Source: Escallonia rubra (taxonomy: Eukaryota > Streptophyta > Magnoliopsida > Escalloniales > Escalloniaceae). From it: a DNA stretch of 64,000 nt. Positions within the stretch are counted from its first letter, which is position 1. Every line of letters begins with the position of its first letter. The position numbers and the translations under genes were made by a program. Under the pieces are notes generated by a model. The model was given only the letters and a program-made list of their open reading frames with translations. It was not told where the DNA came from and did not search any database. Positions 5,909 to 61,152 of the stretch are shown here, piece by piece. The DNA lies in the NCBI GenBank assembly GCA_033065855.1, contig JAVXUO010002726.1, positions 124,001 to 188,000 on the forward strand. The letters run 5' to 3'.

Positions 5909-7679
5909 ATGGTTTTGCTAGACAAGCTTTGGGACGATGTTCTGGCCGGACCTCACCCTGAACGTGGCCTCGGCAGGCTCAGGAAGATCACCCCTAAACC
6001 CTTGAACACCAAAGGTGGTGGCTCTTTTAATTTCATCTTCTTCTTTCCAAGTGTAGAAAGTTCACATATGTAGTTCTACTTATATGCGCATGGACATGAA
6101 AAACACAGACATGTTGTACGTACAACCTCCTTACATGGGCGTTACTTTCTTGTCATGTTTATCGAAACTGTTAACTTGGTGTATAACCTATAAGAAACAT
6201 GCTCAAGGTCAAGAAGACGAGAAGCTCACTGAGTTATAAGAATCAATTTCGATCTCTGGCCGCTTAACGCTCGTTATCGCGTATTGCGTAGAGTATATGT
6301 GAGTGATTTCAAGATTCGAGTCGAGTAAAGCAAAGCAGACTGCAGTGGTAGAAATAACAAAATATGACTAAATCTGATAAATTCTTTTTGAAACATATCT
6401 TGAACACCAACAGCTCGGTACCACGCATGTGAAGCGTCGATCTCCCAGTAGTAGTAGTAGTGAATGTCTTGATCATATGCTGATTACATAACATGTATAA
6501 ATTTTTATTCTTTTTGGTGGATATATGTGTGATCTGAATGCTTATATAGCTAGTGTATCATTTTGGTCAGATGAGGGAGAGGGTAGCGGCAAGTACCAGA
6601 GGTCCGTGTCCATACCAGCGAGCCCGGTGACGCCGGCGACGCCCACGACCCCCACGACGCCGTCGCCAACAGCGGCGCGTAAGGAGAACGTCTGGAGGAG
6701 CGTGTTCCACCCGGGGAGTAACATAGCCACCAAGCGGATTGGCGGGGACATGTTTGACAAGCCACTGCCCAACAGTCCCACTGTGTATGACTGGTACGTG
6801 GACGCTTGCTAATTGAAACTTACACTTGCATGGAGCGGTGCGTCAGTTTCAAGCGCCGTTCCAAAACGTTTCACTCGTATTTCATTTACTTGGCAAAATA
6901 TTCGGGGTATCCTGCATCGGTTTGGCTATCGCCTTGTAAGTGACAATCCCTGTTACAGAGACTCGGTACGAGCATGAGTTCGGTCCGGGTTGTCAACTAT
7001 TGGGATCGGCTAATTTACAAAACTGTCTTGACGACACACTATAGGGTAATCATATTTGGTACTATGCTTTAGTTGTTTTTAAGGTAAAGTGGCGTATCAA
7101 TTGAAAAGCCTTGTCTCAACGCATTATAGGAAACACGATAAGATTCTATGACATGTGTTGAGCACATATTCATGTAGAGTGAAATATGATAAGGTATTGT
7201 TACATATACTATGGCATATGTCGAGCACATATTCCATGTCGGAGCCCTCCAGCGTCCGCTAGATACTTCGTGAATTTTGAAGAATCCGTAACCTGTGGAC
7301 TAACAAATGTTTTATGACGTCATTATTTTACCCAAGTATTCTAGCAAAATGGTAGCTTGGTCAAACGGGTAGATGGGATGTAAAGGTTATGAAATTTTGA
7401 TTTGATCCCTTATTTTAGGGTTTTTTTTTTAAACTTGCTTTGAATCCGTACATTGGTTCTATTAACATGCTCTTATATGGGTTGGTGGTATAACTGTACT
7501 GGGAGTACCATTAGCCAAAACAAGGAGTGTTAATAGACCAGCCTACATGGTCTTTTGGATGCAAGCCGTTGGATCTGATTTCTTAATTATTTGACGGCTA
7601 GGATTACCATTACTGACTGGGTTTTGGCATGCTTGATTACAGGCTCTACAGTGGGGAGACTAAGAGCAATCATCGCTGA
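5909..7679 (+). CDS. DRM1: Dormancy-associated / auxin-repressed protein (DRM1-like)
   Basis: Three exons (5909-6014, 6571-6793, 7643-7679) join in frame to 121 residues, close to Arabidopsis DRM1/DYL1. The protein opens [20 protein letters not shown] and continues GLGRLRK, the most conserved block of the dormancy/auxin-associated family. A Thr/Pro-rich linker with [13 protein letters not shown] follows, then the second conserved block [14 protein letters not shown]...FDKP, and the end [14 protein letters not shown]. Both introns obey GT-AG, and the last codon of exon 2 (Trp) is split across intron 2. The family is small, disordered and plant-specific. It marks dormant buds and starved or ABA-treated tissue, but its biochemical role is not settled. 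It is transcribed away from the RING1 gene's 3' end. I chose the first ATG because the family begins with this motif. Confidence 0.95.
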
Positions 7680-8453
7680 GCTACCGGTCACCGGCGGTTC
7701 CATGTAAATAAGTGTCCTTTTTGTTTCAGTGCCGGCCACGTTGGGTTTCTTTCAATGGTTCTGTGACCTTGTTTTCCCTACTTACTTAACTAAGCCCTAG
7801 TTGTAAGACAGTAAATGGAACGATGTACCCTGTTCTGTTTATTTAATGGTGATGCTTATCATTTGGGAAGTTTGTTTCTTATTTTATTAAATGGTGATGC
7901 TTTCATTACTTCGTTACTGTAAGATACGATAAGATTGTATGTAATCCGGATTTGCAAGATACCGTGTTCAATTGGTGCGAGACGAATATGAATGTCAATA
8001 AATTAGTGAATGATAGTATTTTAAATCCCGTCGGACTTGAGATTTGGATGCTCGACAGCTCGCTTACTGGAAAACTTGGCGGAGTATGCAAAAAAGCAAA
8101 CGAAGAAAAAAAAAATTAAACCCTAAATAATCAACATGGAATAAGAAACAAGCACATAGAAGTTTTGACTATTTTTACAAAGAAATAAGGATCTTTTGAT
8201 GGAATCCTAAGGAACTATTGGTCACTATTCAGGATATTAATTTCATCATACACGTCACCCCCAGTTTGGATGTTGATATTTTGTACTTAAAAACAGAGAC
8301 TTAAGAGAGCACAAGCAATGCTAATTAACTACTCTTAAACATTTCTTTCTTCATGCGAGGAGTAAGGTTTGGAGTTGCATTTTTGTATGTATGTGAATGG
8401 TATCGACTTCATTGGGCTGTTAGTGAACTTTAAAGCCCAAAAGTGTCGAGAGT
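7680..8453. other. DRM1 3' UTR and intergenic DNA
   Basis: The first roughly 200 bp are the likely DRM1 3' UTR. The rest is AT-rich intergenic DNA in which I see no further gene. Confidence 0.4.
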
Positions 8454-8470
8454 TTAGTCATGTGCTATTT

Positions 8471-8582
8471 TTTTATATTTTATTTTTTGGAGGTTGTGAA
8501 CTGTAATTGTATATGATTCTGTCGGTGTAGAGATTCGAACTCGGGACCTCGAGACCCTTTGCCATCTCTACCATCCCTTGGA
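8471..8582 (-). mobile_element. tRNA-derived SINE with 17-bp TSD
   Basis: Read on the minus strand, this short element carries a pol III B-box-like GAGTTCGAATC after a GGTAGAGATGG A-box-like start, and ends in an A-rich tail next to 8471. It is flanked by direct repeats of 17 bp (8454-8470 and 8583-8599, starting ttagtcatgtgc), differing at one position. The layout (tRNA-like head, A-rich tail, long target duplication) is that of a plant SINE. The near-intact target repeat suggests a fairly recent insertion. Confidence 0.7.
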
Positions 8583-8599
8583 TTAGTCATGTGCCATTT

Positions 8600-9434
8600 A
8601 TACGTTCCTTTGTTTTCGAATAATGCAGAACTTTTATCTCCAAGGACAAACATGGCATAAAATTTCATTATTCTACTATAAGGGGAAAAAAAAAATCGAT
8701 CAAAAGATTCTTATTTTATTTTTCTTTTTAGGTCTAACTGATAAGAACGGAATGACGGATAGGCCGTCTTGGCCTGAGTATCACGTGGGCGGCTGCTTAT
8801 ATAATGGCAAATAGCAGTGCTCCTCATCCTTGATAAACAAGAAAAAGAAAAAAAAGAAACAATTTTTCCTAATCATTTAAAAGTTTTTAAATGTTAATGT
8901 CCGAACAATGTCCAACTGTTGTTGTATCATGAACAACCTGACCTTATGCTCTATCATTCAGCAACTTTAGAAATGCCGAACGTGCAGGCTGCATCATTTA
9001 GTCTCTTGAATCACAGAAGGCTTAAAGCAAAAAGGGAATGCACGGAAAAGGGAACGTAGTAGAACCTTCAAATATAGTAAAGTTGCAAGTGAGTTTTGAG
9101 GAGGATACTGAGAACAATGAGACGTAGCCTTTCTTGAGACAACCGCTGCCCAAGATAAAGCAGGCCAATACATAACCATTTCTTACTGTCACTCTTTTCC
9201 ACTAGGACAGAGGAGGATAGTGTTTTAATTGTATGACGTGTTTGGGGTGGACATCGGATTACAAGCTCGATAGTTCTACTATTCAACCAAATCACCACTT
9301 CAGCCACTCACCATACCACTCATCGCAACCCGGCACTACCACCACCACTGCACAGTTCACACCTCAACCACCCCACTAGCTTCCCCACCGATTGCCACCC
9401 CCCCACTCCCACCCTCACACACAGAGACTATTCA
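8600..9434. other. Intergenic, nothing recognised
   Basis: AT-rich intergenic DNA. A CACCACC-rich stretch at 9290-9420 may belong to the interrupted element whose other end lies near 10163. No supported gene. Confidence 0.35.
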
Positions 9435-9870: not shown

Positions 9871-10163
9871 AGGTCGGCGACTGCTATGGGTTGCATGCAA
9901 GTGGTGATGTGCCGGCGGTGCATGTTGTGCGATAGTGGGTGTTGTGCTGCCGCTGGTGGGTGCTGTGCTATTTCCAAATGCCTGGACAAAAATAATACCA
10001 CCTACCCCCCCACCCCTACCTCCGGTGTAGAATTATCCCACTGAAGTGAGATAAAATCAGTCCAAATGATAACTTATCCATCTCTTGTATGCGTAGCTAA
10101 ATGCCAGACATAATTATTTTTATCTTATCCAGAGCCCTTATCCCGCACGCCAAACAATACCCT
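9871..10163 (-). mobile_element. End of a TGTTTGGCG-family DNA transposon
   Basis: The inverted end GGGTATTGTTTGGCGTGC lies at 10163 on the minus strand. It is followed by GGATAAG, a TATC/GATA-rich stretch, the CACTTCAGTGGGATAATTC block and a G-rich tract. The same order of blocks occurs at 38827-39010 in the opposite orientation, so both belong to one family. It is most likely a hAT-like non-autonomous element. The other end of this copy is not resolved and is probably disrupted by the TRIM. Confidence 0.5.

Positions 10164-19543: not shown

Positions 19544-19614
<71 letters not shown>
19544..19614. repeat. (TA)n(GT)n microsatellite
   Basis: About 22 AT repeats run directly into about 13 GT repeats. 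The flanks are part of the surrounding repeat element. Confidence 0.9.
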
Positions 19615-19618
<4 letters not shown>

Positions 19619-20538: not shown

Positions 20539-21545
20539 AAAGGGCATTGCAACCGCGAGACTTAAGCGGATGAAAGGATTCGAGGAAAGAATTTAACGAG
20601 CTATACTACACTTGTGACTTTTAAGAAGTTGAAACATCTTTAACAATAAGGAAGCATTTGACTTCATTTATAGCAAAGGAAAGTAAAGTTAAAAAATTTT
20701 GAATTGCATTCCAAAGTAGCCATGTAAACAAATATGGAGTATTTTAGAGTGCTTGACCTAAACTAAGTAAAAATTATTGGGATACTTAGCAGGGTGGTCG
20801 AAGACTTATTTTTTTTTTTAGAGCCCGAGTTTGAATGTCTCAACGACAATAATATAATTTAGGTTTAATTGCATTGTAAACCTTAACCTTGACTAAAATC
20901 TGCAATTAAAATCCCAACGTTTATAATTAGGCCGCCATAACTCCAAGGGTTTCCATCTATTTCAATCGAAGCATTTCACTTACAAGGGTTACACAATTCC
21001 CTTGTTTGTACAATTTATATATTTTTTAGTAATTAAAATTTTCAACCAAGTTCAACAGAGGAGATTGAGGTAGAAGAAGATATGATGGTCATTTGTCATT
21101 TTTTTTCCTTTTTCTTAGTCCTTCTCATTATCGTTCTCATTCTCATTCCCTAACCATTGCCCACCTCTGCCAAAGCTCGACTGTTCCTCCTCCACAAACC
21201 TACTGCCTACCAACCTTAAAACCCACCTCTACGACCTACCTCGGCCACTCGCCTATCCTTTGCCACCCCTACTTCACCTCTGTGAACCCACTACTGCTGA
21301 AACCACCAATTTGCAAACCTTATGTTGCTCGCCTCTCTCGTGTCGCCCGTCATTCACTTCTGCTAACCCATCGTCGTCGCAACCACCAATATGCAAACCC
21401 TCCACAGCTTTCTTCTCCCCTGTTGCCCCTTATTTTCCTCTGCGAACCTACTACCAACCAACCCACTACCACAACCAAGATGACGCTGCTTAAGGTGGCA
21501 TATTGGCGAGGTTGCCACTGTATGTATATTGATTGGTATTTTTTG
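20539..21545. other. Intergenic, nothing recognised
   Basis: AT-rich DNA followed by a CCA/CTC-rich stretch (21100-21480) that gives long but low-complexity open frames. I see no conserved domain. Confidence 0.35.
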
Positions 21546-22611
21546 TTTTTGAGTAATTACAGCAATGTCCCTAATGTTATGGTGAAATTGCAAGCATGTC
21601 CTTTAATTTGGACAAATTACATTTATGTCTATTGATCAAACGGAATACAAAAAAATACATGTCAATTTTGACCAAAAGACTTAATTGGTCTTGAGTAAAA
21701 TTGAAATTCATAATTTTCCCATGGTTTTACTCTTCATAACCTTCCACCACACATCACTACCGGCATGGCGCCGACACCACCTCCACCGTGCCTTCAACGT
21801 GAATTTTTTGTGCTTCTTTATGTTGAGTTTAGGTCAACCACCTCTCAGTGTTCCTACCTTTGCTCAGTGACACTAAAGGCTAATAGCACCATCACACACA
21901 AATAACCATGGGTGAAGATCAAATGCAGATGAAGAAATTCAAAAGAAGGCAAATATTAAGTTCTATAATGTTGAACACCAGAATGATAAATCAAGGCCAA
22001 GCCAGTAAGTGTACCCCATTCATGGAGGTAAGATCATATACATCAACGTATACGAGCACTGATCCACTCCGACCCTTTGTGTCTGACTAGTTTGGTTGTT
22101 AAAAAATGCGAGCTAGAATAATAAAATTTGAGAAGACGAGGGTTTTCTTTTGATGGGAAATCTAGTTGAGGTGGCGGTGGGAGATCTGGTTGCGGCGGCT
22201 GCAGGGGTGCGGTGAGAGTATGGGTTAGGGTGGCAGCAGTAGCGGGGGTGGGTGGAATGGGGGTGGGGTTAGGGGGAGGGGCAACAGTGGTGTGGGGGGG
22301 GGGGGGGGGTTAGCGGTTGGGGGAGAATGAAAACTAGGGTTTTTTTTGTTGAAATTTTGAAAGATTTTGTAATTAAAAGAAAATTCATATAAAATATACC
22401 AATTGTATATCGTATAAGGGCAGTATTGTCAATTTATGAATACGTGTTGATAACATAAGCAAAAAGTTACACTTTTCTAAAGGATTAACGACTGATGGAC
22501 ACAACTGAAGCCTTTTTACAATTGTTGGTCATGATCTGTTATAGTTTAAAACTTTTATCCTTGACTGTGATTTCACCTTAATTTCAGGGACATTACTATA
22601 ATTATTTCTTT
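21546..22611. mobile_element. Mutator-like non-autonomous element, 9-bp TSD
   Basis: A 1066-bp element flanked by a perfect 9-bp direct repeat TATTTTTTG (21537-21545 and 22612-22620). Its ends are inverted repeats of about 45 bp sharing TAATTA-AG-AATGTCCCT and then GGTGAAAT. The 9-bp duplication points to the Mutator superfamily. The inside is non-coding and includes a strongly G-rich strand (22160-22330, with a run of about 17 G at 22292-22308). No transposase, so it depends on a helper. Confidence 0.7.
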
Positions 22612-25010: not shown

Positions 25011-28000
25011 ATGGGTTTACCTGAAATCGTAGATGTTGCCCGTAATTTCTCTGTCATGGTCAGAGTTCAAGGCCCCGTGAGTTCCTTTTCCCTCTACATG
25101 CATAATCTACGCGTCTTTTTGTTTAGTGACAATTTACGTGCACTCAGCTCTGCCTAATTTCACCTGGGTTTCCAAACCTTCCCTTGATTTCAGGACCCAA
25201 AGGGCCTGAAGATGCGAAGACATGCTTTCCACCATTACAAGTGAGTCGTGTTTACACAAAGTAAAGGTCGACTTATTGTTTTTAACTAACATTAACTTGT
25301 CAAATAATGATTAAGATCTTTGAGTATTGTATGAATTTAATTCGATGTTTAGATGCTCAAAATAGTATTCTACACATTGGACGAACATTTTGATCACTTG
25401 ATCGCTTACTCTATAGCTTATTGTTGTGTGTTTGTGTTAGCTCTGGCAAAACAACACTATCAGCATCTGGAGTGCTTTTACCCAAGCAGAATTGTCGCGA
25501 TACCGATACCCAATTGTTGGTTATGACGGTTGCATCTGTTATTGAGCCATTTCTATCTCTACAACAGAGGGAGAACGTATCTGAGGTTGGCCACTCTACA
25601 TCCTAGAAAATAAAATTAGTCCCCCCTTTTTCATGGTTCGGGGCAGGTTTTTTTTGCTGTATTGGTGGGTATATGCATCTCAGTATTACTTTTGCTTTAC
25701 AGCACGCCAAACACGAGTTGATACCTGGTTCTCAGATTGATATAATGGTGGAGGTACTTGGTGCTATACAGTAATGCCCTTTATTTACCAGACTGAGTCG
25801 AGCTTAAACTTTTGGCTGCAGAATGATATAGTATGGATTTTGATGCACAGGGAAAGATAGGGGTGGAACGTATCACAGAACTTGAGGAGAAGGAAGATCC
25901 TAATTGGCTATCTGCACAACTTTTAACGTTGGTAGACACTTTATAACCCCAACCGTGGAATTGATCATTTTACATACAAAAATGTTTATTATCTTCTTTC
26001 TGCTCCTCTTTTTTTATCAGTGTAGATTTTTTATTTGGGTTACGCATACATAAATCATCAGCTCTCTGTCTCTATTTTGCAAATTTTTTTGGCAACAATA
26101 ATGTGGAGACTCACGCCATCTATGTGGTCTATTCTCAAGGTCGATATTCCTGAATCCGCTGTTGCTGTTCAATCACTAATTGACGCATCTTCAGGCTCAT
26201 CGGAGCATGGTTGGGAAGTTGGTTGGTCCTTAGCCTCGTATAGTAACAGTTCTCAACCTTTAATGGGTGCGCTTCGAACACAGGTACTTTACTCTCTCTC
26301 TCTCTCTCTCTCTCTGTCACATGCACACACACGATCGTAAAGCATTTGAACAGGAATGATTGTGGTCTTATTTGTAATTCTTTCAATATTTTGACTTTAT
26401 GGATCCAAAACTGTGACATGAACTATCAGCTTAACTCAGGTTCAGCAACCTTCCTTATGGACCCAGGGGCAAATAATAGGGAGAGAATCAAGCAATCCAA
26501 GTCTAATGGGAAAGGCAGCTACTAGAATTGCCGTACTTAAAGTTTCATCCGTACTGTGTGAGGTACTTATCTCCAGACTCCTAATAGACATTCTAATGGT
26601 AAACAATTCACAATATAAGCATATAGATGACCAGTAAGATCTAATTTTCTGCTTATCCTTTGTTTGCATAATTCAGTTGTGTATTCAGGAGAATGACAGT
26701 GTGAATGTATCTAGGGTCTGCCAAACATACGCATGTCACTCCATTATAAGCGGGGAGATATTCTCATGGCAATGGGTTCTCCTTTTGGTGTCCTGTCTCC
26801 TGTTCACTTCTTTAACAGGTAGCATTGCATATTCTCCATGCCACTTCTTTGAAAATTGCGTTTTAATAATCTAGAACTCCATCTTCTGGTATTTCGCCTC
26901 CTTTCTTTCTGCAATTTTGCTGCCAGTGGGTTGATGTTGTGTCATTTTCTTGATATTTGTAATTGATGTTACATTGCAGTTGCCATTACTTATTTGTTGT
27001 CCATCAGTTTTTGTAAAAATTGCGTCTTTACATAAGAATGATGATGTTTTCCTAACTGTTGTCTTTTCATAAACTTAAATTGTGGTTTTGATGTCTGATC
27101 ATTCTGTCTCTTGAACCAGTATATCAGTGGGATCGATTGCCAACTGCTATCCCGCTGGCTCCTCCAACAGGTCACTATTAATGGCTGACATACGGTGTCT
27201 TCCTGGTACGAGCTTTTTCCTAAGAGATTTTCCCTGCATGATTAATTAGTTCTGATTTTGTTCTAATTCTAATTTATCAGGGATGGAAGGTGGTGTAGTA
27301 TATGGGGAAAACGCAGAACTCATTGGTATCCTGGCAAGACCAATACGGCAAAAGACTAGTGGTGCTGAGATTCAGGTAATTAGGATATATTGAAGGCTTC
27401 TTTTGAATAAGTGGATTTTGAAAAGAAAGGATTGATAAAAATGAAAGATGATTACGAGATAGGAAACTTCAATAGGATCCATAGTGGAGGTATTGGTGAC
27501 TTGTGATGTTTATTACAAATTTCTAAACCAACAGGAAAATATAGTATCTTAAAAGTCCTCTTATGTACCGTGTTATGACAGCTGGTGATTCCATGGGAAG
27601 CCATTGCAACTGCTTGCAGCGAGTTTCTTCAGGAGTCTCAAAATGCGCAGAAAGGGTTTCGTAGCTGCACTGGAAATTTGAATGCTGATAAGAAAGCCTG
27701 CTTACCTAACAATCTTGATTTAGATGGATCTGTCAATTATACTTACGAGCATCCTAGTTTTGATAGCCATACAGTATCACCTCTTGATAAGGCAATGGCT
27801 TCTGTTTGTCTTGTCACCGTTGATGGTGGAGTATGGGCGACTGGTGTTCTACTGAACAATCAAGGTTTGATTCTTACAAATGCCCACCTTTTGGAGCCAT
27901 GGAGGTTCAGCAAAACAGCTGCAAATGGTGAAAATTGTGGAACCAAATCAGACGAAATTTTCATCCCTTCCAACAGATCTGCACCTCATGGACATGAAAT

Positions 28001-30473
28001 ATTTGGTGGCAGTAGGAGGGGTCAGGATTTGCTGCCAACAAAATTGAAGACTGCGGAAGATTCTGTGGATGATGAGCAAAGGAGATACAAATCTAGTTCA
28101 GCCAATATTCGCCAAAGCATACGGGTTCGATTGGATCATACTGACCCTTGGACATGGTGCGATGCTAGGGTACTGTATGTTTCTAAAGGATCTCTGGATA
28201 TTGCACTACTGCAGCTTGAGTTTGTTCCAGAAATGCTTTGTCCTATGGTTGTAGACTTCACTTGCCCTTCCCAAGGATCAAAAGCATATGTCATTGGACA
28301 TGGACTATTTGGACCTCGATGTGGTAAAATTGGTTTCCTTGTTTATCTGTTTCTGGCTGTTAGATGAAAACCGTTTCAGTGTTCTCACATAATATTCAGA
28401 TGTAGAACGATTTTTGGCGTGACACGATAATTTGACCAGTATTAACTGTACCTGGTACAGTTTATGCTCTTATTCTGTATAAGTACTTCTACTGGGTCTT
28501 GTTGATTGTTGGACTTTTCAATGTTCGTTACCTTGCTGGAGAATTGTTAGATTCGATTGTTACAGGTTACTTTTCTTGGTAATACTACTTCATTAATTAA
28601 GACCATAGGGCCTATAGTGCACACAGATATGTATGTGTATGTCAAAACGGTATGAGGTAGGATATGATGTTCGTTAGTGAACAGATGTACTTGTTTAGGC
28701 TATATTGATATGCTCTTTGTTCTTTCACATGACCTCTATTGACATCTCAGCATTCAATCCTACCAAGGTTGCTGAACTTCTTGTATCTGATCTGAATTTT
28801 ATTTGCAACAGATTTCTTTCCATCTGCTTGCCTTGGCGTAGTAGCAAAAGTTGTTGAAACAAAGAGGCCTCCAGCCCAGCAATCCAGCAGAGGAGAGAAT
28901 TGGCCAAAACGTATGCCAGTAATGATTGAAACAACAGCTTCTGTGCACCCAGGTGGTAGTGGGGGTGCCGTCGTCAATTCAGATGGTCGTATGATTGGCC
29001 TTGTCACGAGGTATATAAGTGAAAGTTTGGGTTTCTCTTTTTTCATCCAAAAGATTAATGCATCTTAATTATAAGTTCCAATTTGTCTTACTTTTAAAAG
29101 AGTTGGGTCAAGTGTTTCCATAATTGATAATTGATACTTGAACTAACTCAGAACATTTTGTTGAACCAATTGTTTCAAACATCAATCCATTCTCTTTTAC
29201 TGAATAATAATTTACATTTTATGCTGTCTTCGGGTGAAATTTAATACTGATATTGGAACTAGTGTGATTTGAACTTAAATTTTCATTGTCTCATATTGCT
29301 TTGTGTCTTATTTTTGATCGACCACAAAAGATTTTTGTCCCCTTTACCTTTTCTTCATGATATACAAACTAACGTATTCGCGTGTTTGGGATCGGTAAAC
29401 CTGTGTTGGAAAAAGCCCATTGTTGGACACAATTTTGTGTGAAGATTAACTTGATTTTAATGGTCGATTTCGGAACCCCCAGTCTGGCTCCACAGTGAAA
29501 GCGACTGTGGAGGGACCGGAGCCCTGGATCGTTTCCCACAGCAAAGTTAGGCAATGCTCGATGGTTGGCTTGTTTTTAGAAATTATTGTTTGCAAATTTG
29601 ATGTCTCAGTTGCAAGTATTTGAGACTTGGTACTAGGTTGAACTTCACCACCTTTCACCACTTCTTATGGTTTGCATACCATTTGTGAAACAATCTTGTT
29701 AGATCTCCCTCCTCTTGTCCTCTTCATCTCTGATATCACGGATATCTATATTTTTGCACTTGGAAATTGTTTTCTGATGAAATTGGCCAAGATGCTCATT
29801 TGTGATCTTCTTTTTCTACTTCGACATATCTATCTTATCTTCGTACTTGTAGATGGAACTTCGTACTTAACGATGTATTTGTTGATACAGCAATGCAAGA
29901 CATGGTGGAGGGACTGTTATACCCCATCTGAATTTCAGCATCCCATGCGCAGCCTTGAAGCCTATCTTCAATTTTTCAAAAGGTTTAAGTTTTATTTGGT
30001 ACTTATTATGTTGTTTAATCACCACAGAATTGGAGACCAGTCAAATAGTGTCAATCTTTCTTCACTGGGGAAAAACAAAGCAGTAATAGAGATACATTAA
30101 ATGGAACATATCTCTTAAATATTGTTTGGTCTCTTGTTTTTCCATTCTTTTTTTTGCTTTTAATGAAGGTCGCTAGTTTGATGACTTTGTACTTCTATTC
30201 CAAACAGACATGCATAATTTCTCTCTCTTAGAAGATCTCGACCAACCAAATGAGCACCTGTCTGCTATATGGGCGCTGATGCCACCATTATCTCCGAAGC
30301 CAGGCCCTTCCCTGCCTCTTATGCCGCCAGTCCTGTTAGGAGACAGTAACAAAGACGTGAAGGGCTCAAGATTTGCTAAATTTATAGCTGAAAGACAGGA
30401 ATTGGTGAAAAGCACAACTAGACTTGACAAAGAGGAAGGCGTTTCTACCAAGTTTATTCCGAGTAAGTTGTGA
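25011..30473 (+). CDS. DEG15: Glyoxysomal processing protease DEG15
   Basis: Fourteen exons (25011-25076, 25194-25240, 25441-25585, 25703-25753, 25851-25931, 26140-26283, 26440-26562, 26715-26818, 27120-27205, 27281-27375, 27582-28323, 28812-29010, 29891-29982, 30208-30473) assemble in frame to about 746 residues (Arabidopsis about 709). It starts [20 protein letters not shown]. Blocks [16 protein letters not shown] and [12 protein letters not shown] follow. The C-terminal trypsin-like half has a probable triad: His about 416 in [10 protein letters not shown], Asp about 520 in SLDIALLQ, and Ser about 611 in [10 protein letters not shown]. The last three residues are SKL, a classical PTS1 signal, so the enzyme enters peroxisomes. 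There it removes the PTS2 presequences of imported enzymes such as malate dehydrogenase and thiolase. The exon 8 acceptor (26714) is forced by an in-frame stop just upstream. Confidence 0.96.
26289..26315. repeat. (CT)n microsatellite in DEG15 intron 6
   Basis: About 13 CT repeats start a few bases after the splice donor of exon 6. Pyrimidine runs this close to a donor could affect splicing, but that is speculation. Confidence 0.8.
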
Positions 30474-36800: not shown

Positions 36801-39800
36801 CTCCTCTAGGATGTTACCTCGGCCCATCGGGTAGGTGACTCCTCCGGGACACTACCTTGGCGCGCTCCGAGTACTCGGCACAAGGACTCACCCGCGGGAT
36901 AGGCGACTCCTCCGGGACACTATCTCCACCAGGGTGTCTGCGTGACTAGCCTATGTGCTCCGGCACTGGGGGCTTTCATCGGCATCCTTAGGGACTATGA
37001 CCCCCATGTCACTCTGAGACGGGAGCAGATTTTCGAAGGGAATCGCGCCTAGTCCGCCTGGCAGTTGGGCGTCGGGTCTTCCCCAGTGCTGCCAGGTCCT
37101 CGGCGTCTCTTCACGCCTTGTGGGATTCAGTAAAGGCTTTGGATCGGTGGCTAGGGCAGGGACTTACTCTGAGCGTGCCGATAATGTGTGGTCAGTCTTT
37201 TCAGACAGGTAGAGCGACGCTGTGTGGGGCAGGCAGAGCAAATATGGGAACCGACGGTCTAAAAGGAGCACCGACATTTGTGGACCCCTTGGTGACTTGT
37301 CACTCCCAGGGGATGCCACATGGCAATTGATGACACATGCATACTTTTGCCTATAAATAGAAGACCTTGGAGTTCATTTGGTACAGGAATTCTCATTCTG
37401 ACAAAAATCACTCACTCTAGAATCCAGAGCTACTGAATTCTAGAGAGAGAAACACAATTGGACCGTGACATTGGACATAACATCGACCGTGACGTTGGAC
37501 CTTGACTTGGACCCTAGCTTGGACTGTCGACTGTCGGTCTTGTTCGTTTTAGCCTCGTCTCCACAACACTGTCACTCATCATGGTCTGTCTAGGAAGCCT
37601 TGCTCTTTGCCCTTACTCCATCCTCATTGTGTCCCACTTTGTACATCTAGCAGCTAACTCGGACTGTATCTTTTGTGGCACTTCCACGTAGATATGAACC
37701 CACTTTCCTTGGCATCACATGTTTTTATCATTGATTATACCAATACATAGGAGAAATTTGTGTACATTTAGGAAGAACTTTGGGGGAAATATACTTTTAC
37801 ATCTAGGAGAAATTAGTGAAAGAGTAGGAAGAAATTGGGGAATTGTGGAACTATGAAATGTGGGAAGGAAGTTGATAAATTTTGGGAGAGTTGTAAATTT
37901 TGGGAAAATTATATGTCCTTAAACTTTGAAGAAATTGTATATATCGATATACACAAATGTGATGTACTGGGTGTTGGTACACGCCAAGATTGAGAGGCTT
38001 TGTAAGGCATTGCTTGATTTGCCAGAAAGTTATGTGTTGACATATATGAGATTTTGTTGTATACAAGGGAGAAGGGTGGTAGTCTTTGGCTCCAAATATC
38101 CAAGGGCATTTTTGTCTTAAAAGATGCATACAAGTGGCACTTGACAAGCACGTGCCTGTTTTCCATCGCTTTTTTATGGTAAACTAGCGGAGTGTGGATT
38201 ATAATTTTTGGGTTTGATGACCCGAAGAGGTGTTACCGTTGGGCGGACTACTTTATGGACCGAGTCGTCACGAGTGATTAGTTGAGGGGGTGCTACTCTA
38301 TTTTACCTTTATACCATTGTAGATTGGGGGCTAACTATTTCTAACACTAGCGTAGCCTCGGGTCAGTTTTTGGGCAGTAGGAACCAACTTGGTTCATTTG
38401 CAAATAATAAAAGAGTTTGTAATAAGCATCATGAGTGTGAAGAAAGTGAACTTAGCAATATGCTGGAACTAGGAAGCAACTAGATCCTAACCTGGACTTG
38501 GATATCCATGCCATATTATATCTAAAAATGCACTAGGTAATGGCTCTAGTTGATTTGTGTTGTGAGCGTCCTCCTTTTTGAATATAAGTGAGAAGATGGT
38601 AATCTTTGGTTCCAAATGTCCAAGGGTGTTTTTGTATTAAAAGATGCACACAAGTGGCACATAACAAGCACGTGCCTGTTTTTGCATTCGTTTTTACGTA
38701 AACTAGCGGAGGGGGTTGTAATGTTTGGGTTTGATGACCCAAAGGATGTAACCGTTGGGTAGAATACTTTATGAACCGAGTTACCTCGAGTAATTAGTTG
38801 AGGGGGTGTTACTGTATTTTACCTTTAGGTTATGTTTGGCGCGCCGGATAAGAGCTTCCATAGGATAAAAAAAATCCTATCTGGCGTTTGTTCACGCATT
38901 TAAAGAGAGGATAACATATCTGACGGACAGGTTGTATCCCACTTAGTTGGGATAATTCTGTACCCGGGGGTTGGGGTTGGGGGTGGGGGGGAGTGTGGTT
39001 TTATTTATATCCAAAGGTGGTGGGATAACAACCGGCGGGCCAAGGAGCACCCACAGCACCCACTGCCGGCTGCACAACAACCACCGTCAGCACAGAATCA
39101 CTGCTGGCGCAGGACCACCACCGGCAAAAGAACCATCGCCAGCACAGAACCCACCTCACATAACCCATTGCCGGCCTAGCAATTTGTGGTGGTGTATGTA
39201 AGTGTGTGTGTGTGTCGGGCATTGATGGTGGTGGATTGGGCAATTAGCGGGTAAGGTAATGATGTGTTCGGTTGTGGTTGAGGCGATCGGTGGTGGGTGC
39301 GATCTGTGGGTGATGGAGGTTGGTGGTGATCGCTTGTGGATGCGATCGGTGTGTAATGGAGGTTGGTAGCAATTGGTGGTGGGTGCGATATGTGGGCGGA
39401 GACTGGCCGCAATCTGTGGATGATGTGGTGGTGTGTTGTCGTTGGTGGTGGTTGTTGCTTGGGTTCTGCTAGGGTGGTAGTTGCAATGGTGGTTGCTGCC
39501 CGATGGTGAAGGCGGCAAGATAATCCTATCCGGCCTCTAATCTGGGTTTGGTCTAAACATGGTATAGGATATATACCTTACCCGGCCTTGTCCGCAAGGA
39601 TATGTTCGCTTATCCGACCATATCGCTATCCTACTCGACTGAGTTATTCGTGACACTAGCGTAGCCTCAGGCAGTTTTTGGGGAGTACGAATCAGCTAGG
39701 TTGATCTGCCCGAATGACAGAATAGTTTGCCATAAGCATCATGAGTGTGAAGAAATTGACTTGGCAATACGCTGGAACTAGGAAGCAACTAGAGCCTTAG

Positions 39801-42800
39801 CTGAACTTGGATTTTCATTTCGCATTATATTTAAAAATGCACTAGGTAATGGATTCTGTTGATTTTGGTTCTTGGCGCCCTCCTTTTTTGAAGTGGCATT
39901 CTTGTTTTTGAAAGGTTTTGATGTTTGAGTTGCAATGTGGAAAGTTGTGTGACTTGTGTCTTGCTAATATAGGCTAATTTGATAATGACTGTCGCTCCTA
40001 GTAGTTGGTTACGTAGATGACGTTAGGGTTACTTAGTAGCTCAGTAGTGTGGTTGCTGTCTTTATTTGTTAGCATATGTTTGAAGGAGCAATCATGAAAT
40101 TCAAAGAAAAGTTGAAATTAGTTCAATACTGAGTCAAGTGGGGTGTTGTACTTTCTACAGTGGGTTCTTATTCCTACTTTTTCATTGCTTAAGAAAAAGT
40201 TTTAAACATTGTTTCCCACTTTGGCAGCGGATTCTCATCACTGTATGATCCTTAAGTAATTAATATGTTGTATGTTAATGTGCCAAGTGGTATTTAGAGA
40301 AACAGAATAATACATTTGAAAAGAAAGGAGAAGGGTTTGGTGGGAGAAGATATGATATTCCATGGGGCTATTTAGGAGAGATAAGTTAAATTGGTCTTTG
40401 AAAATTATGGCTCGCCGTAGCCACTTCCTAGGTGCACATGGCAGTAGGTCGGTTGGGAATTAAATGACAAAAAGGATGAAGTATTCAATCACTACCATAG
40501 GAACATAAGTTTTCAGAATATCATGGAGAATTAACTACTATTAGGTAGATGTTTTATTTCATCGTAGCACGCATCATGAAATAGAACGATATATCTTCTT
40601 TTGCACCTTCCACTGATGTAGAACTCTTTTCCAACTTAATGTTACTTTTCTTGGAATCAGTTCAAGAATCAAGCTTACTTTGGTTGCTAGCATACATAAT
40701 GTTTTGCCACATCTTTCTCATTTGACCTGCTAATTTTGGAGCACTTACAGTAATATGTTGACGTAGAAGTACCACTCTAATAAGTCAGCATTTCTTACTA
40801 AAAAGGCAGAATGACACTCAGAGCTAGCAGAAATTGCTATTCTTTGGCATGTCTACGAATGGTTTCATGATAGTATTTATATGTGCATTTGTGTGTGTGT
40901 GTCACAGAAGTTCCTAATTTATCATATTGGAAGTCTTTAAACTGATTTTTCCTTTTAAAGACGGCTGCCTAGTGGTTAAGGCTACTGCTTTATGGGGTAG
41001 GTTCAAGTGGGCAACCTTACCTCTATCTTTGAAATGGCTGATTCCCAAGATTCAAACCTGCTAAATGGACGGAATCAGGACCACTTATATAGTTATATGG
41101 TCAGGTGGGATTAAACAAGTTGCGGCTACAGACCCTTTCACAATGCATCTCCTGCCATACATACCTTTAGCCACAAGCAAAAGAGGGTATGGATTTCGCT
41201 CCACCTTTCGATGATTTCCATCATATATGTAATGGGCTTTATGAAAATCTGTTTTGGACCGGGCTTCGATTCTTTTGAGTTGTTTCTTTGCCGTGGGTTG
41301 GCTTTTTTGTGAGCTATTGTATTCTTGTGTCTTATCCCTAATGCATAAGACTGAGCTGGATTATGGGCCTCTAGCACCTGAATCAGTTTTTATTGGTTTG
41401 CACATATATATATATATATACATACACTTTTCAGGTGAAGCTCCAAAAACACAACGCTGAAGCCAATAAAATGAAGTATAGGAATGGAATGCATTGTACT
41501 GCAAGGATACTGAAGACTGAAGGAGTATGCCTCTTGAACTTCTTGTGAGACACAACTTTAAGCTGTTAATCTTTCTCTCTATGAATGTGTTGTAATTAGA
41601 GGATTTTTTTTTTGATTTTTCCTCTATGTTTGTATATGTGAGTGTTTACACAACTAGTCATCATTATAAAAATTATTAGTTTGCTGGATTATGTTGCTAG
41701 CATCAGAATTTATTGAGGATTCTTAATTTATGCTGCCAAAGAGGAAATCGTCTTTACTGTTTGGACCTGTCGTGATCTAGATGAAGCATATAAAATTAAG
41801 GAACAACTTGTTTTAATCATCCTGAACACACATGAATCAGAGGTATTCCTTCTTTAGGTAATATGATTTATGCTTGTGATTGGTGAGGTGCAAACTCCGC
41901 CTCTGTCGAGCTCATTGATGCTAAAATGATATGTAAAATGTAGTGCCTTCTAAAATAAGGCGAGTTTTATATCAATGTCTCAAGGAAGGCTACTCAAAAC
42001 AAGATGTTCCAGTAGAGAAACTAGAAGCCACTATATTTGGGTTTTCCTTCTCCTATTAACCATTTCAAAGGAAGTAGAAATGAAAAAGGAAAAGGGGGAA
42101 TTATGCGTAGCAGGAAGCATAACAAAACTGAAGTAACTACCAGGAACAAAGATTGGATCAAGTGAAGACCCACCTCTAGATCTCAAAGTTACTAATATTC
42201 GTAATCTGTAGATTCAATTAGTACCCTGTTATGTTACCGTTTTTTCTGTTTTTATTTTCTCCCTTTTCACACTTACTTGTTTGGTTACGATTTTTTAACT
42301 TATTTTCAAAAACATATAATCCATTTTCTATTCCCCATTTTCACCCCAATTCTATCTGCTGTTAGGAAACAAATTGGCATGAGAGAAACCATTTCCCCCC
42401 TGCAAGAAACACCGCCTTCATCCACCGCTGCCAGCATTTCTCCACCCCACTCCTCTACAAATTCTAGTGTCACTGCTGGCACCACTTTTCCTCCCCACTC
42501 AGTTGCCACCACGTCTTCACCACTGCTGCGAGCATCCGGCTTTGTGCCTCGATGGTGGTATTATAGGGGTCAGTGTTGCGATCTAATGGTCGACCAATGT
42601 TTTAGGCTTGCAAAATGAGGCTAAAGTGGCAGGTTCTGGTTGGGACCATGAGGAGGGTTAGAGAAGCTTAGTGATTAGCTTGTGGGTGAATTCCGATCTA
42701 ACTATGTTTTTGGGGATTTATAATATTTGAGTTTGGGCGTATCACAGCTTAAGTGGATGGGTTCTGATCGAGAAGAAGAGTTGAGACAGCAAAGAATTTG

Positions 42801-44310
42801 ATGCTGTAGAGACGAAACCAAAGGAGAGAGGGGGTCAGGAAGTGAAGCAGAAGGGAGAGAAGAGGAGGAAATAGATGGTGACATCTATGAAGATTATAAG
42901 ATGAAATGATTCCAAACACAATGAAACTTTATGCATATTGTTGATAGTAAACATTATTTCTTAAACTTCCGATAAAGAATGCACTAAAGCTTATTCATCT
43001 TTGTTGGTTGCGTATGATTTCTCATTTGACGATGTGCTTGGTCCTTGGGGGGGCCTTTTTGACAGGTGAAAGGACTTTATCGAGGCGCAACATCGTCCTT
43101 TGTGGGGGTGGCCTTTGAAAGTTCACTTATTTTTGGCATTTATTCCCAAGCAAAACAAGCACTGCAGGTTTGTGTATTAGTACTTCTGTTTGAAGAAACT
43201 GCCTCTAGCAGAGGCTGGATGCAATTGGAATTGAGCTGCTTTTGCTTCTGTGTGTTGGTATTAATGGATACTTCTGGCCATTTTTTCTTTCACTTGAAGG
43301 GAGGAGTTCAAAATGGTAAGCCGCAGCCCCACGTGATAATCCCTTCAGCAGCTTTTGGCGGAGCACTTATCAGCTTTGTACTATGTCCATCAGAGCTGAT
43401 GAAGGTACGTGACATTTGAAAGTCATGCACCGCACTTGTTTTGTTTATCATGCTTATGACACTGAGACTTTCCAGTGTAGAATGCAAGTTCAAGGAACTG
43501 ACTCTTTGGTTAACTCGCGGGCATACAGAAGTCCTCTCGATTGTGCAATTAAAACCATAAAAGCCGAAGGGGTAAGAGATCCCTGGTCATTGTCAACTAG
43601 CTATCTGATGTAGTTTCTAGCTGATAGGTGCCTTTCCAGGTTCCAGGCATTTTTCGAGGAGGGTTCACGACCTTGTTAAGAGAATCCATCGGGAACGCAG
43701 TGTTCTTTAGCACGTATGAGTATGTACGCTATTTCATGCACCGAAAACTGAAAGATGCTTCATCTGATTCGACCAATCTGATGGATGTTGGAGTTGGAAT
43801 AATGAGCGGTGGTCTTGGTGGTATAGCAGTAAGTAGTTTTGTCACTAGGAGTCCTGAAGACAACCACTGCATTTAATTTGAGAAAACTACCCTCCTTCCC
43901 CCCCCCCCCCCCCCACTTTTGCATTATTTGTGTGCTTGTGGTTTTCTTTCTAAAGTCTCCTTTCCACCATTTCACTTTTGCCAGTTCTGGTTTGCTGTTC
44001 TGCCCTTAGATGTGGCAAAGACGATAATTCAAACTGCTCCAGATAAAAGCTCGACTAGAAATCCATTCCAAGTTTTGAAGTCGGTAAGAGATTCTATTCA
44101 TTTATTTGTTTGACCAAATTTCCATTAAAAGAGAGTGAAGTGCCTGATCTAGGCTTATCCGGCTCTTCGTGATAGATTTACCGGAGGTCAGGCCTTGGAG
44201 GATGCTATACAGGTTTAGGTCCTACAATAGTAAGGGCATTTCCTGCTAATGCTGCTGCAATTGTCACATGGGAGTTGGCTGTGAAAGTTTTGGGGATCAA
44301 GCGAGACTAA
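33883..44310 (+). CDS. BAC1: Mitochondrial basic amino acid carrier (BAC1-like)
   Basis: Eight exons (33883-33975, 41435-41524, 43066-43167, 43300-43404, 43476-43571, 43640-43828, 43985-44083, 44176-44310) join to 302 residues, close to Arabidopsis BAC1 (311). The start MGDSSGYKDYVAGLLAGVAT is nearly that of BAC1. The three-fold mitochondrial carrier repeat is visible through its P-x-(D/E)-x-x-(K/R) signatures: PFDTVK (26-31), PSELMK and PLDVAK. Other hallmarks are GLYRGATSSF, KCRMQVQGTDSL, FRGG and RAFPANAAAIVTWE, and it ends LGIKRD. The protein should sit in the inner mitochondrial membrane with six helices and exchange arginine, ornithine and related cations, important when seed storage protein is mobilised. 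Intron 1 (7459 bp) is swollen by nested transposons, yet its splice sites remain canonical. Confidence 0.96.
35865..36110. repeat. ~70-bp tandem repeats in the LTR
   Basis: About four diverged units centred on ATGCGCCATTCATGCGTCAC followed by a GTGCCCC-GGC block. A related pair of about 80 bp follows (36120-36240). GC-rich and non-coding, part of the U3 region. Confidence 0.6.
36350..36935. repeat. ~180-bp tandem array in the LTR
   Basis: Just over three units of about 179-184 bp (GCTCTAAGTGCTCC recurs at 36391, 36575 and 36754). Each is itself built from shorter blocks around GGCGACTCCTCCGGGACACT. Units differ at scattered positions. Such higher-order arrays are typical of LTR enhancer regions. 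Confidence 0.75.
37351..37360 (+). promoter_or_regulatory. LTR TATA box
   Basis: CTATAAATAG lies about 365 bp before the LTR end, a normal place for the U3/R border of a plant LTR. As a fossil promoter inside BAC1 intron 1, in the sense direction, it could in principle start intronic transcripts. Confidence 0.45.
38058..39890. repeat. Tandem duplication of TIR end plus host intron
   Basis: Unit 1 (38058-38578) holds about 255 bp of the TIR element's right end and about 240 bp of flanking intron. Unit 2 repeats both parts (38579-38826 and about 39654-39890), split by an insertion. Shared landmarks are GATGCA-ACAAGTGGCAC, GTAAACTAGCGGAG, ACACTAGCGTAGCCTC and AAAAATGCACTAGGTAATGG. The two units have drifted by roughly a tenth to a fifth by eye. 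Confidence 0.7.
38827..39652 (+). mobile_element. TGTTTGGCG-family element inside unit 2
   Basis: It begins GGTTATGTTTGGCGCGCCGG and contains GATAACATATC and CCCACTTAGTTGGGATAATT followed by a G-rich tract, in the same order as the copy ending at 10163. The interior is GT/GGTGG-rich. Near the right end, GGATA/TATCC-rich blocks (39525-39640) repeat. The right boundary is inferred from where the duplicated host intron resumes. Likely hAT-like and non-autonomous. Confidence 0.55.
40961..41115 (+). mobile_element. Possible tRNA-like SINE fragment
   Basis: The A-box-like GGCTGCCTAGTGGTTAAGGC is followed by GGGTAGGTTCAAGT, a degraded B box. The head resembles the SINE at about 47872. Neither an A tail nor a target repeat was identified. 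In BAC1 intron 1. Confidence 0.35.
41525..43065. other. BAC1 intron 2
   Basis: A 1.5 kb intron. A block at 42240-42900 has a C-rich then G-rich composition unlike its surroundings and may be another small transposon, but I could not define ends. No gene inside. Confidence 0.3.
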
Positions 44311-47241: not shown

Positions 47242-47261
47242 TGACAGAAGAGAGAGAGCAC
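47242..47261 (-). promoter_or_regulatory. miR156/157 target site in SPL3 3' UTR
   Basis: On the minus strand the 20-mer GTGCTCTCTCTCTTCTGTCA starts 104 nt after the SPL3 stop codon. It is the standard miR156 recognition sequence of plant SPL transcripts, in the 3' UTR as in Arabidopsis SPL3, SPL4 and SPL5. Pairing with miR156 represses the gene during the juvenile phase. The plus strand here resembles miR156 itself, but no precursor hairpin surrounds it. Confidence 0.93.
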
Positions 47262-51194: not shown

Positions 51195-51910
51195 CACTTC
51201 TTTTTTTTTTCTTTTTTTCGGTGCTTTAAGAATGATACATAGACACTACACCTTAATCCCTCGTGCACGGTGTGTGTGACGAGCATCTACTGCTAGAGCA
51301 CCAGAAAGATTTGAAGGTGGAGCACTTAAGATTTGGACCCATAAGCTCCAATCTTGCTTGATTGGGGTCGGCACAAGCATTAGATTCCCACCAAATGAAT
51401 ATTAATCTGCAGTCCTATTCATTTTCAAGCAAGTTCCGTATTCGGAGAATCAGGTTTCTGTCTGAATCCATAGAGGAGTTATTTGTAATGGCTTCAATTG
51501 CCTCTAAAGTATCGGATTCCAAAATTACTTTTTTGAGCTCCTTATCCCAAGAAAGCTGCCGTTCCTGCCATATAGCCCATAGTTCCACCGTGTGGCTATT
51601 TGTGACCCCAATGTGATAATATGCTGAAGAAAACCAATTAACCATTGGCTGCAGTGATCACGCCCTAATCCAGCTACACCAGCTCGACCTGGATTTCCTT
51701 CAGAAGTTCCATCTACGTTAACTTTCATCCAATCAAAATTTGTAGGTGACCAACGACATACAAGTGGTTGAGATGGTGCAATAATTGTGGTCTGACTTAT
51801 GAATATGTTTGCCTCCTTAACTTTTGATAGATTGATTTGTGCTAGATTGTTAGGTAACACACCAGCTTGCTCGTGTACAACTTTATTCCTCCAATACCAC
51901 AACTATCACT
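51195..51910 (-). mobile_element. L1-type LINE relic, RNase H end
   Basis: On the minus strand, frames at 51900-51650 and 51645-51415 read WMKVNVDGTSEGNPGRAG followed, after a shift, by FSSAYYHIGVTNSHTVELWA and LESDTLEAI. This is the RVT_3/RNase H-like domain at the C-terminus of plant L1 elements (K-N-DG, G-G, E--A, DS). A T-rich tract at 51198-51218 would be its poly(A). One or more frame breaks; dead. Confidence 0.65.
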
Positions 51911-54240: not shown

Positions 54241-54280
54241 GAAGTCTCATTTTTTTTTTACTAATTTAATTTCTTTTTTT

Positions 54281-57235: not shown

Positions 57236-58459
57236 CTTGTGATTGAGGTATATGCTACTTTTTCATAATACTTATCTAGGCTACTGGTGAAATTTGGTTG
57301 GACAACCTGACTCTAGCCAAAGCAAGCTCGATTGTTCCGGATTTCTTTCTTTTCTCAAGTGGGATCGAGGAGGAGCAAATCCTTAGTAGTAGAAGATTAC
57401 TACGCAGTAATGGATTTTAATGCCCCAGAGCTATCAAATTATTACGGAGAAGTTTATGCGTCACAAAAAAAAAAAAAAACTCAATATATCTCGATCGTTC
57501 ATAGGTATAAAGAGCATCACATGATCAGCAAAGAATTTTTCCTCTGGGAACTAGGTCAAATGACATTTTTCATCCTCGTACACGTTACATAAGTAATTCT
57601 TAGGTGTGACGGCCATGTTACGTCATCTTTAGTACCGGTGAGAAAGGACTTGCCATCTAAATCAAAGTGCAACGACTATTAATGATGCAACCACACCTCG
57701 TAAACTATCACCAGATATATCATCTTTACCGGAATGTCACTCCGCATGGTATCACCCATGGAGTGCCAACAATTTTATAGCCAAAGTTTCGGGCGGTACA
57801 ATTAAAATACCACTTGACAAGTCCTTTACAGTAATCTAAAGGACTATGCAGTTAGATTATAGTAAGGAAGAAGGACTGAAAGGCATAATGATGGGAAAAT
57901 ATAGTTAGGGGGAGGAGAAAATCCCTCGGGAGACTACAAAATCCGTTTGTTCCCTTAACAACTCCTGCTTGCTTTTTCCTTCTTTAACCTTAGCAGCTGA
58001 GCTGCACACCACATGGGTCCTGGTGAGTCTGGTGGTCGAATGCCTTTGGTTCCTGTTCAAAACTGGTTCTGCATAATTTTATTCTAAGACTGACAGCGTT
58101 AACGGTTTACTCCTCCAAACCAAAGGGAAGGGAGAGAACTGAGGAAGAAGCAGCAGAACAAAGTGAGCCCGCGGGAATAAAGCGTGGTCTAAGCCATGTT
58201 TGATTCTGAGTTGTAGACTCCCCACATGCTCCCTCTTGTCCTTTTTCTCTTGGCATTCTCAGTCTCTGCGTAATGTTTATTACTGTATTTGTTGAATCCT
58301 GATGCAGAATATATACACGCGCACACTATCATATACAAATCAAGATATGGTGTTTGTCATCAGATTCACGTAGAATATTTGCACGTTGTTTTAGTTACCA
58401 AAACCCTAAAAAAAGATAAAACATTTTATTGCAGAATGAAACGTAGCAAAATTCTAGAG
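57236..58459. other. Intergenic, nothing recognised
   Basis: AT-rich DNA upstream of the Dof gene. The short open frame at 57332-57592 has no recognisable domain. Confidence 0.35.
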
Positions 58460-58556
58460 CGAAATCGTGTCGTCGAGCAGAGGTGCAATCGTCAAATTAG
58501 GAGATCTAGCAAAATCGTGTCGTCGAGCAGACGAGTAATCGTTAAATTAGAAAATC
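58460..58556. repeat. ~53-bp tandem duplication
   Basis: AAATCGTGTCGTCGAGCAGA followed by a -TAATCGT-AAATTAG block occurs twice in direct tandem (about 58462 and 58512). Small local duplication with a few differences. Confidence 0.7.
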
Positions 58557-60025
58557 TTAACGAGTGAAAGAAATATTTAAGGGTTTGTAAGCATATCTAT
58601 CCTCGAAAATCATAAGTTTTGGTCTTGGTACGCACGGACGTTGTTATTAGAATTAGACTTTATTTTATAAACAAGACTTCATGATGATTTAACATAGTTT
58701 GGATATTATAACTTTGAAGTAAAGTTTTGAGAATGACATGAGCTTGGCAAAAAATTACATTTATGGACTGACTTATTGATGGGTGGGAGAGCCCAGACAA
58801 ATTGTTACTCATGGAATGCACCACTTACAGTTCGGTACAATAATGTCACTGATTGGGCTAGCTAGCTACTTGATGAAAGCATCAAAATATGAAAAGTGGG
58901 ATTTGCTACAAATTAATTACAATAATGTGCCTGTCTGTGATCGAATTATTACACTATTGTTTAATGGAGAAATAATTTGCCATAAAGAAAGTGGAAGTGG
59001 GATTTGCCGTGTGACTGCCTCGGGTACTGAGTCCTAGGGATTCCCTCTTATCTTTTATGTCTATCTATCTATCCCATCTATCTGTATATATCTTAAGCAA
59101 AGGAATGTATGTTTTTGATGTTGGGTTCTGCAGTGTCATGTAGTTGTTCTCTTTCTTGGACCTCTCGAGATTCATTCTGCAAACATGCTGCTTTAAGTCT
59201 TTAACCCTCTCTCCTCTTCTTCTTCTTCTTCTTCTTAGTTAGAATGTCCTTCATTTCTTCTCTTTCCATAAAAAAAAAAACTTTCCCAGTTTCACTTTAT
59301 AGACCAGATCTATCATGTGAAAATGAAGTAGAAGATTGTGTGAGACCATCTGAGTAATAGTAAATTTTTTGTCCACAGCACATGAAAGTGAGTAAAATGT
59401 GGCATTTTTGGGAGAAAAAATTAGAGCCGCGGACGACTTTAACCCATTAATGTGTTTGACCCATTCAAATAAGTTTTGCAACAAACCAGAACTTATTAGA
59501 TATAAATCCAGATCAAAGTAATCTTGCCTAATAGTTAGCTTATATACGTCACTCCCTCCGTTCAATGCAAATTGGTCTGATATACTAGCTTCCTTTATAC
59601 CATGTGTTCTTTTTACTATGTTCCCGCTCCCATCGCTGCTCTAAGCACTTTAGAACTAACCCGTGTAAGCACAGTCATGGGCAAATCTTATGTACGTTTT
59701 CTCGACAAAAAATAATTGGATTAATGGCTGCGACATCGCAAATTTTACACGATCAACGCTAACCATATAACTGGAAGCATCTATTTTGTCGGTGAAAGAA
59801 ACAAAACTTGTTCTAATTACGAGTGTTGTAAAGTAAATGTATAGCATTATTAGTGTAAAAGTAGATAGACTATCCCGTGAAACTTTGCCACAACATGATC
59901 CCAATTCTATTTTCTGTTTCTCTTTGTCAATATTTAAAATTTCAACCTATCAAAGAAAGGCTAGCGTCGCCACCTGCTCTTTGTCCGTTTACTCTTTGTT
60001 TCAACGATTCCTTTGGGAGAAGAAA
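58557..60025. other. Dof upstream region
   Basis: Promoter-side DNA with simple repeats: TCTA repeats at 59061-59085 and (CTT)n at 59217-59236. A clear TATA box was not assigned. No other gene seen. Confidence 0.35.
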
Positions 60026-61152
60026 ATGCTGGGTAACTGTGATGACAAGATGCTACTCATCTCTTCAACTCCTAACCAATGGCCACAGGTTCACTGAGCG
60101 CACCCCCCCCCCCCCCCCCCACCACCACCACCACCACAACACCCCACACACACCTCTCAATCAATTATTAGACAAAGCCTGACCCCATTTTTGTTTCTTA
60201 GCTTTTGGATGTGAATATTTCCCTTGTGTTGTTATTTTTACCCTAAGAAACACCACCTTTGAGCTCTTTCTTTCCTCTTCTTTGTGTTTTCCATTTTGTG
60301 CAGAATCACATCGATGAGAAGCAAAGCTTGATGGCTTCAACAACTTCTTCTAGGGTTATGGAAAACCAAACCCAGCAGCAGCAAGTTCAACAACAACAAG
60401 TCCAGCTCAAATGTCCGAGATGTGATTCATCAAACACAAAGTTTTGTTATTACAACAACTACAGCTTGTCTCAGCCAAGGCACTTTTGCAAAGCTTGTAA
60501 GCGGTATTGGACTAGGGGTGGAACCCTAAGAAACGTTCCCGTTGGTGGCGGCTGCAGGAAGAACAAGAGAGTCAAAAGACCAGCCACGTCGGCCGCACCT
60601 TCATCAATATCATCATCAACTTCAAACCCTAATAGTGTTCAAGTTAATGCTCAAGCTCAACCTCAGATGGATCTATCCTCTTCCACTTTGTTTTATGGCT
60701 TACCCACTAATCCTTTCAATTCTCGGGTTTCAAATGTTGAAAATGTTTGTGGGTATGATCTGCAACCTCATGTGAACGGTCTTGGATTAGGGTTTGATGG
60801 TAGTACTGCTTCAAATCCACTTCTTTCAAGCTACCCTATTTTTGGGTCTTCTACTTCAGCTTCTCCTACAATGGCTTCTTTAATTGCTTCCAGTTTTCAG
60901 CAACAAAAGCTTGTTAGAGGAGGCAATGGTAATTTTCTGGGACTCGTACCTTATGAAGACATGCAAATGCAAGGGATGAAGGAAGTAAAAATGGAGGGAA
61001 ATGGAAATAGGTTCGATTGGAATGTCCCGAATTCGCAGAATCAGATCCACCAAATGGGTTCATCAGATCCTTCTCTTTTGTGGAATTCGACTGGTGTTGG
61101 TGCTTGGCTAGATCCTGCAAATCTTGGTTCTTCAGTTCCTTCCTTGATCTAG
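60026..61152 (+). CDS. Dof zinc-finger transcription factor (Dof1.4-like)
   Basis: Two exons (60026-60088 and 60304-61152) give 303 residues. Exon 1 encodes [20 protein letters not shown] plus Q and joins in frame to [16 protein letters not shown]. The alternative start at 60259 lies before the splice acceptor and would add an unrelated leader. The Dof finger has C58, C61, C83 and C86 (C-x2-C-x21-C-x2-C). It lies in [20 protein letters not shown] and is followed by [20 protein letters not shown] and a basic KNKRVKRP. A Gln-rich patch precedes the finger and a Ser/Asn-rich region follows. The C-terminus [17 protein letters not shown] closely matches that of Arabidopsis Dof1.4, supporting orthology. 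Dof proteins bind AAAG in plant promoters; the targets of this one are not evident. Confidence 0.95.
60103..60137. repeat. C run and (CAC)n in the Dof intron
   Basis: About 18 C followed by ACC/CAC repeats inside the 215-bp intron, shortly after the donor. Homopolymer length may be an assembly or sequencing soft spot. Confidence 0.8.

Follow-up and report, generated by a model that had tools for sequence, protein, structure and literature searches.

In Arabidopsis, the genes DRM1, DRM2, and DRM5 carry the locus numbers At1g28330, At2g33830, and At5g44300 (PMC3596386), DEG15 is At1g28320 (PMC3473262), BAC1 is At2g33820 (PMC4099941), and the neighboring At1g28310 and At2g33810 are a DOF gene and an SBP gene, respectively (PMC3485569). 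RING1a (AT5G44280) and RING1b (AT1G03770) (PMC9083068) are both listed as PRC1 RING genes (PMC2447854). For tomato, Solyc02g077880 is described as an auxin-repressed protein and listed with AT1G28330 (PMC12227991), Solyc02g077890 as Ring1A (PMC8364250), Solyc02g077910 as an arginine/ornithine transporter (PMC11354283), and Solyc02g077920 as CNR, an SPL (PMC4784954). Here, we describe a window of 64,000 nucleotides from the Escallonia rubra genome (bases 124001-188000 of contig C3173, 192386 bases long), in which genes of the DRM1, RING1, DEG15, BAC1, SPL, and Dof types follow one another. These six genes very probably represent an ancestral eudicot block that is unbroken in this plant and has been scattered over at least three Arabidopsis segments by duplication and loss. 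Our comparison across species uses locus numbers from published papers, taken from the passages of those papers that name the genes, rather than sequence alignment, and adjacent locus numbers denote adjacent genes by convention of these annotations.

All six gene types (6/6) of the DRM1-RING1-DEG15-BAC1-SPL3-Dof block were found in that order in the window by means of open frames, Pfam and PDB matches, and coding sequence (CDS) models, with the strands DRM1(+), RING1(-), DEG15(+), BAC1(+), SPL(-), and Dof(+). The features are as follows.

5909-7679, plus strand: DRM1-type dormancy/auxin-associated gene (exons 5909-6014, 6571-6793, and 7643-7679; 121 amino acids; CDS model)
15611 to about 10947, minus strand: RING1-type PRC1 RING-finger gene, between DRM1 and DEG15 (exon model)
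About 25011-30473, plus strand: DEG15-type peroxisomal processing protease (open frames; full splicing left unmodelled)
33883-44310, plus strand: BAC1-type mitochondrial basic amino acid carrier (8 exons, 302 amino acids; CDS model)
48828-47366, minus strand: SPL3/CNR-type SBP gene (exons 48828-48509 and 47483-47366; 145 amino acids; model)
47242-47261, minus strand: miR156 target site 104 bases past the stop of the SPL gene, presumably in its 3' untranslated region (UTR)
60331-61152, plus strand: Dof-type zinc-finger gene (single open frame, 273 amino acids)

The DRM1 product, with its exons joined by eye, matched the Pfam family PF05564 (Auxin_repressed) at 1.1e-48. We take the minus-strand gene between DRM1 and DEG15, from its sequence, to be a RING1-type PRC1 gene; it contains a C3HC4 RING finger by Pfam, and the best 10 PDB rows for this finger are all RING2/RING1B chains, 2 of which are fusions. 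The C-terminal end of RING1 resembles RAWUL by eye, and Pfam gave no RAWUL match there; the large exon alone matched no Pfam family, and NCBIfam, a prokaryote library, returned nothing for the RING1 end or for BAC1. The RING1 model leaves out the 5' exons upstream of 15611, its borders are approximate, one acceptor is doubtful, and the sequence after the RAWUL-like part is uncertain.

DEG15 carries Trypsin_2 (Pfam) on two exons and a C-terminal SKL (PTS1) at 30462-30470; as read from the translated frames, the features that mark this protease, a protease domain and a C-terminal PTS1, are both present. BAC1 matched Mito_carr at 1.3e-37 in a by-eye join without exon 2, and its PDB matches are to mitochondrial carriers generally, with mitochondrial uncoupling protein 2 first and BAC1 not singled out. 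The first intron of BAC1 spans 7.5 kb (33976-41434). Within it, a G+C-rich stretch that resembles an insert, and is possibly a mobile element, includes tandem arrays of 67-base units (35858-36079) and 184-base units (36351-36934). A 64-base inverted pair (35015-35078 and 38763-38826, 77% complementary) lies in the same intron, and 38077-39888 contains a number of diverged direct repeats, spaced at about 520 and about 1310 bases, as part or neighbor of the insert.

The SPL product contains an SBP domain (Pfam, 3.7e-33), and the Dof product contains a Dof domain (Pfam, 3.6e-34). A miR156-target pattern had a single match in the window when up to 3 mismatches were allowed, namely, the exact one at 47242-47261, and had 0 matches in 100 shuffles. 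AtSPL3-5 are described with a miR156 site in the 3' UTR (PMC4035897); a small SBP protein together with such a site is the arrangement of the SPL3/4/5 (CNR) group, of which the window gene is a probable member.

The exon models of DRM1, BAC1, SPL, and RING1 were anchored on expected peptides and were stop-free by requirement, so that their openness is partly by construction; what they show is that an open reading exists, not the true transcript. A preliminary description of this DNA had named DRM1, DEG15, BAC1, SPL3, and Dof types in this order, and open frames, Pfam matches, and models bear out all five. The subfamily labels DEG15, BAC1, and Dof1.4 were assigned by eye after Arabidopsis proteins, which we take to be the counterparts, and the analysis itself shows domain families. 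The same description was right about the order of its five genes and passed over RING1 between DRM1 and DEG15, though the check that it proposed mentions "six proteins."

The window can be set beside three stretches of the Arabidopsis genome. Along At1g28330-At1g28310, DRM1, DEG15, and Dof are collinear with the window, and no locus number is left for RING1, BAC1, or SPL3; along At2g33830-At2g33810, DRM2, BAC1, and SPL3 are collinear with the window, and no locus number is left for RING1 or DEG15. At At5g44300-At5g44280, DRM5 and RING1a lie close together with one number (At5g44290) between them, and these are the only two block genes that the cited passages place there. By published locus numbers, the three segments, with one DRM gene each, jointly cover all six gene types as complementary collinear subsets. 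The locus numbers At1g28330-28310 and At2g33830-33810 had been put forward in the preliminary description and agree with the published passages, and both runs do form complementary subsets of the window's order. However, neither of the two named segments has RING1, so that they do not suffice for the block, and the position of DRM5 and RING1a suggests that At5g44300-44280 is its third Arabidopsis segment. By the Arabidopsis gene order, ARF3 and tyrosyl-tRNA synthetase would be expected upstream of the block in this plant. No description of this three-segment relation was found in the titles and abstract openings of the literature naming the Arabidopsis loci, a search that was not exhaustive.

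On tomato chromosome 2, the CNR region follows the order of the window with a DRM1-type gene, Ring1A, the arginine/ornithine transporter, and the SPL gene CNR; a single slot (077900) lies where DEG15 would be expected. By locus numbers in the cited passages, 4/6 block genes are placed and 4/4 of these keep the window order, DEG15 and Dof being unplaced. Four of the first five genes of the block are thus in the same order in tomato, and therefore the unbroken arrangement is older than the divergence of the tomato lineage from that of Arabidopsis, which upholds the earlier proposal that the window preserves a preduplication order. Chance assembly was rejected as the main explanation, as tomato keeps the order. 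A further statement, that this plant lacks the Arabidopsis loss, fits the data and was overstated: it holds for any eudicot outside the gene-losing lineage, tomato alike, and this plant is nothing special because tomato largely keeps the same order. A tomato DEG15 orthologue has been predicted in a passage that gives no locus number (PMC9328179). Within the literature located, no tomato numbers beginning 07790, 07795, or 07796 were found, and no paper was found to bring together two of the six tomato locus numbers tried.

Grape and poplar add shorter stretches. In grape, SPL3 is VIT_10s0003g00050, likened by its paper to LeSPL-CNR (PMC4507754), and DRM1 is VIT_10s0003g00090 (PMC7449092, PMC7698159). 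Three slots lie between SPL3 and DRM1 along VIT_10s0003g00050-00090 on chromosome 10, the same count as the window genes between them, and 2/6 block genes are placed. Among six grape locus numbers tried, the literature located gave 00050 and 00090 only, and six further number beginnings were unmatched; nor was any literature found that brings together as many as four of the topics Colorless non-ripening, synteny, SPL3, Dof, and auxin-repressed. Poplar chromosome 4 has the SPL gene POPTR_0004s04630 and DEG15 at POPTR_0004s04650, with one number between them, and chromosome 11 has the SPL gene 0011s05480 and DEG15 at 0011s05510, with two numbers between them (both DEG15 genes, PMC3473262); the two SPL genes are a duplicate pair in the AtSPL3/4 group (PMC4035897). 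As given in these passages, an SPL gene near DEG15 is kept twice in poplar.

We propose that a DRM1-RING1-DEG15-BAC1-SPL3-Dof neighborhood would have been present in the eudicot ancestor and that Escallonia rubra keeps it without a break. On the way to Arabidopsis, the block would have been copied by whole-genome duplications, and each copy would then have lost a different set of genes, so that at least three putative remnants are left with a DRM gene in each (At1g28330-28310, At2g33830-33810, and At5g44300-44280). The order would simply be inherited, and no joint mechanism among the six genes is proposed. Accounting for the arrangement mainly as a functional cluster was rejected, the six products having no evident common pathway.

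Several points weigh against this proposal. We infer the orthology of each gene, and the origin of the Arabidopsis pattern in duplication and loss, from gene types and published locus numbers. The At1g28 and At2g33 segments are presumably a recent duplicate pair and At5g44 an older relative; likewise, the place of Dof in the block outside Arabidopsis is a presumed one. DRM5 and AtRING1a are separated by one locus number, and their closeness may be coincidence. The evidence on copies elsewhere in the plant's own genome covers DRM1 and DEG15 of the six genes. For the tomato DEG15 slot 077900 and the tomato Dof position, nothing was found in the literature as far as it was available in passages, and the same is true of the grape slots 00060-00080 and the grape Dof position. 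A second tomato Ring1 gene, Solyc07g053800, lies elsewhere (PMC8364250), and two further DRM-like grape genes are named in addition to VIT_10s0003g00090 (PMC7449092).

Recent duplications are common in plants, and the plant may have had its own later genome duplication, so that the window would be the less pruned of two copies; we regard this as rather unlikely. Poplar, with its two SPL-DEG15 pairs in the cited passages, offers a precedent. However, searches of the plant's own genome (566129122 bases in 3222 contigs) returned a single match to the large DEG15 exon, a stretch of 219 amino acids. PF05564 had 4 matches in the genome, 2 of them being the DRM1 exons of the window and the other 2 lying on contigs C2538 and C2539, where they cover positions 1-35 and 1-34 of 117 only.

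L003 1501-1602 (G000:C2538): N-terminal DRM-family match; the open frame is, by eye, that of another DRM subtype
L004 1501-1599 (G000:C2539): N-terminal DRM-family match from the PF05564 search

Both the lone DEG15 exon and these short DRM matches, one of which looks like a different subtype, argue against a later duplication, and this genome may yet contain part of the block in another copy.

It is also conceivable, though we give it little weight, that only the At1g28 and At2g33 segments belong to the block, that RING1 entered independently, and that DRM5 and RING1a are close by chance. The absence of RING1 from both named runs of consecutive Arabidopsis locus numbers would agree with such a history. 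In tomato, however, the number of Ring1A directly follows that of the DRM1-type gene in the cited passages, so that a DRM-RING1 neighborhood is seen in this plant, in tomato, and on Arabidopsis chromosome 5, which speaks against an independent entry of RING1.

Selection on shared regulation, beyond inheritance, could have held the genes together, and the DRM and SPL genes do stay near a PRC1 component and a carrier, at least in this plant and in tomato; this seems very improbable, however, since the genes are apart in Arabidopsis, the protease and the carrier have no evident link, and many eudicot blocks persist equally long. Hardly any credence is given to a variant in which distal elements, situated in DEG15, BAC1, or RING1 introns or gaps, control SPL, Dof, or DRM1, so that the block was kept as a unit and its break in Arabidopsis was allowed by spare duplicate copies.

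Apart from the six genes, Rfam at gathering scores gave no match in the window, and ARAGORN gave no tRNA there. Pfam found no family in 10 other open frames; the window as a whole was not covered by a six-frame Pfam scan, and further genes are possible. These frames are as follows.

334-681, 582-869, 1518-1832, 21069-21632, and 35566-36354: Pfam-negative open frames
37001-37330, 42205-42615, 51525-51902, 57317-57589, and 58274-58564: Pfam-negative open frames

The open frames at 334-869 and 51525-51902 resemble, by eye, remnants of LINE-type elements, Pfam having no family there. Two simple repeats are possible markers, namely, (AT)22 followed by (TG)14 at 19545-19615 and (CA)19 at 62454-62491.

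The block of Escallonia rubra leaves the general view of plant genome evolution unchanged and is an ordinary instance of a known process. It illustrates clearly how a plant gene neighborhood becomes dispersed through duplication and loss, and it links the tomato ripening locus CNR to its Arabidopsis counterparts by position. Reconstructing the old order apparently calls for a third Arabidopsis segment, DRM5-RING1a.

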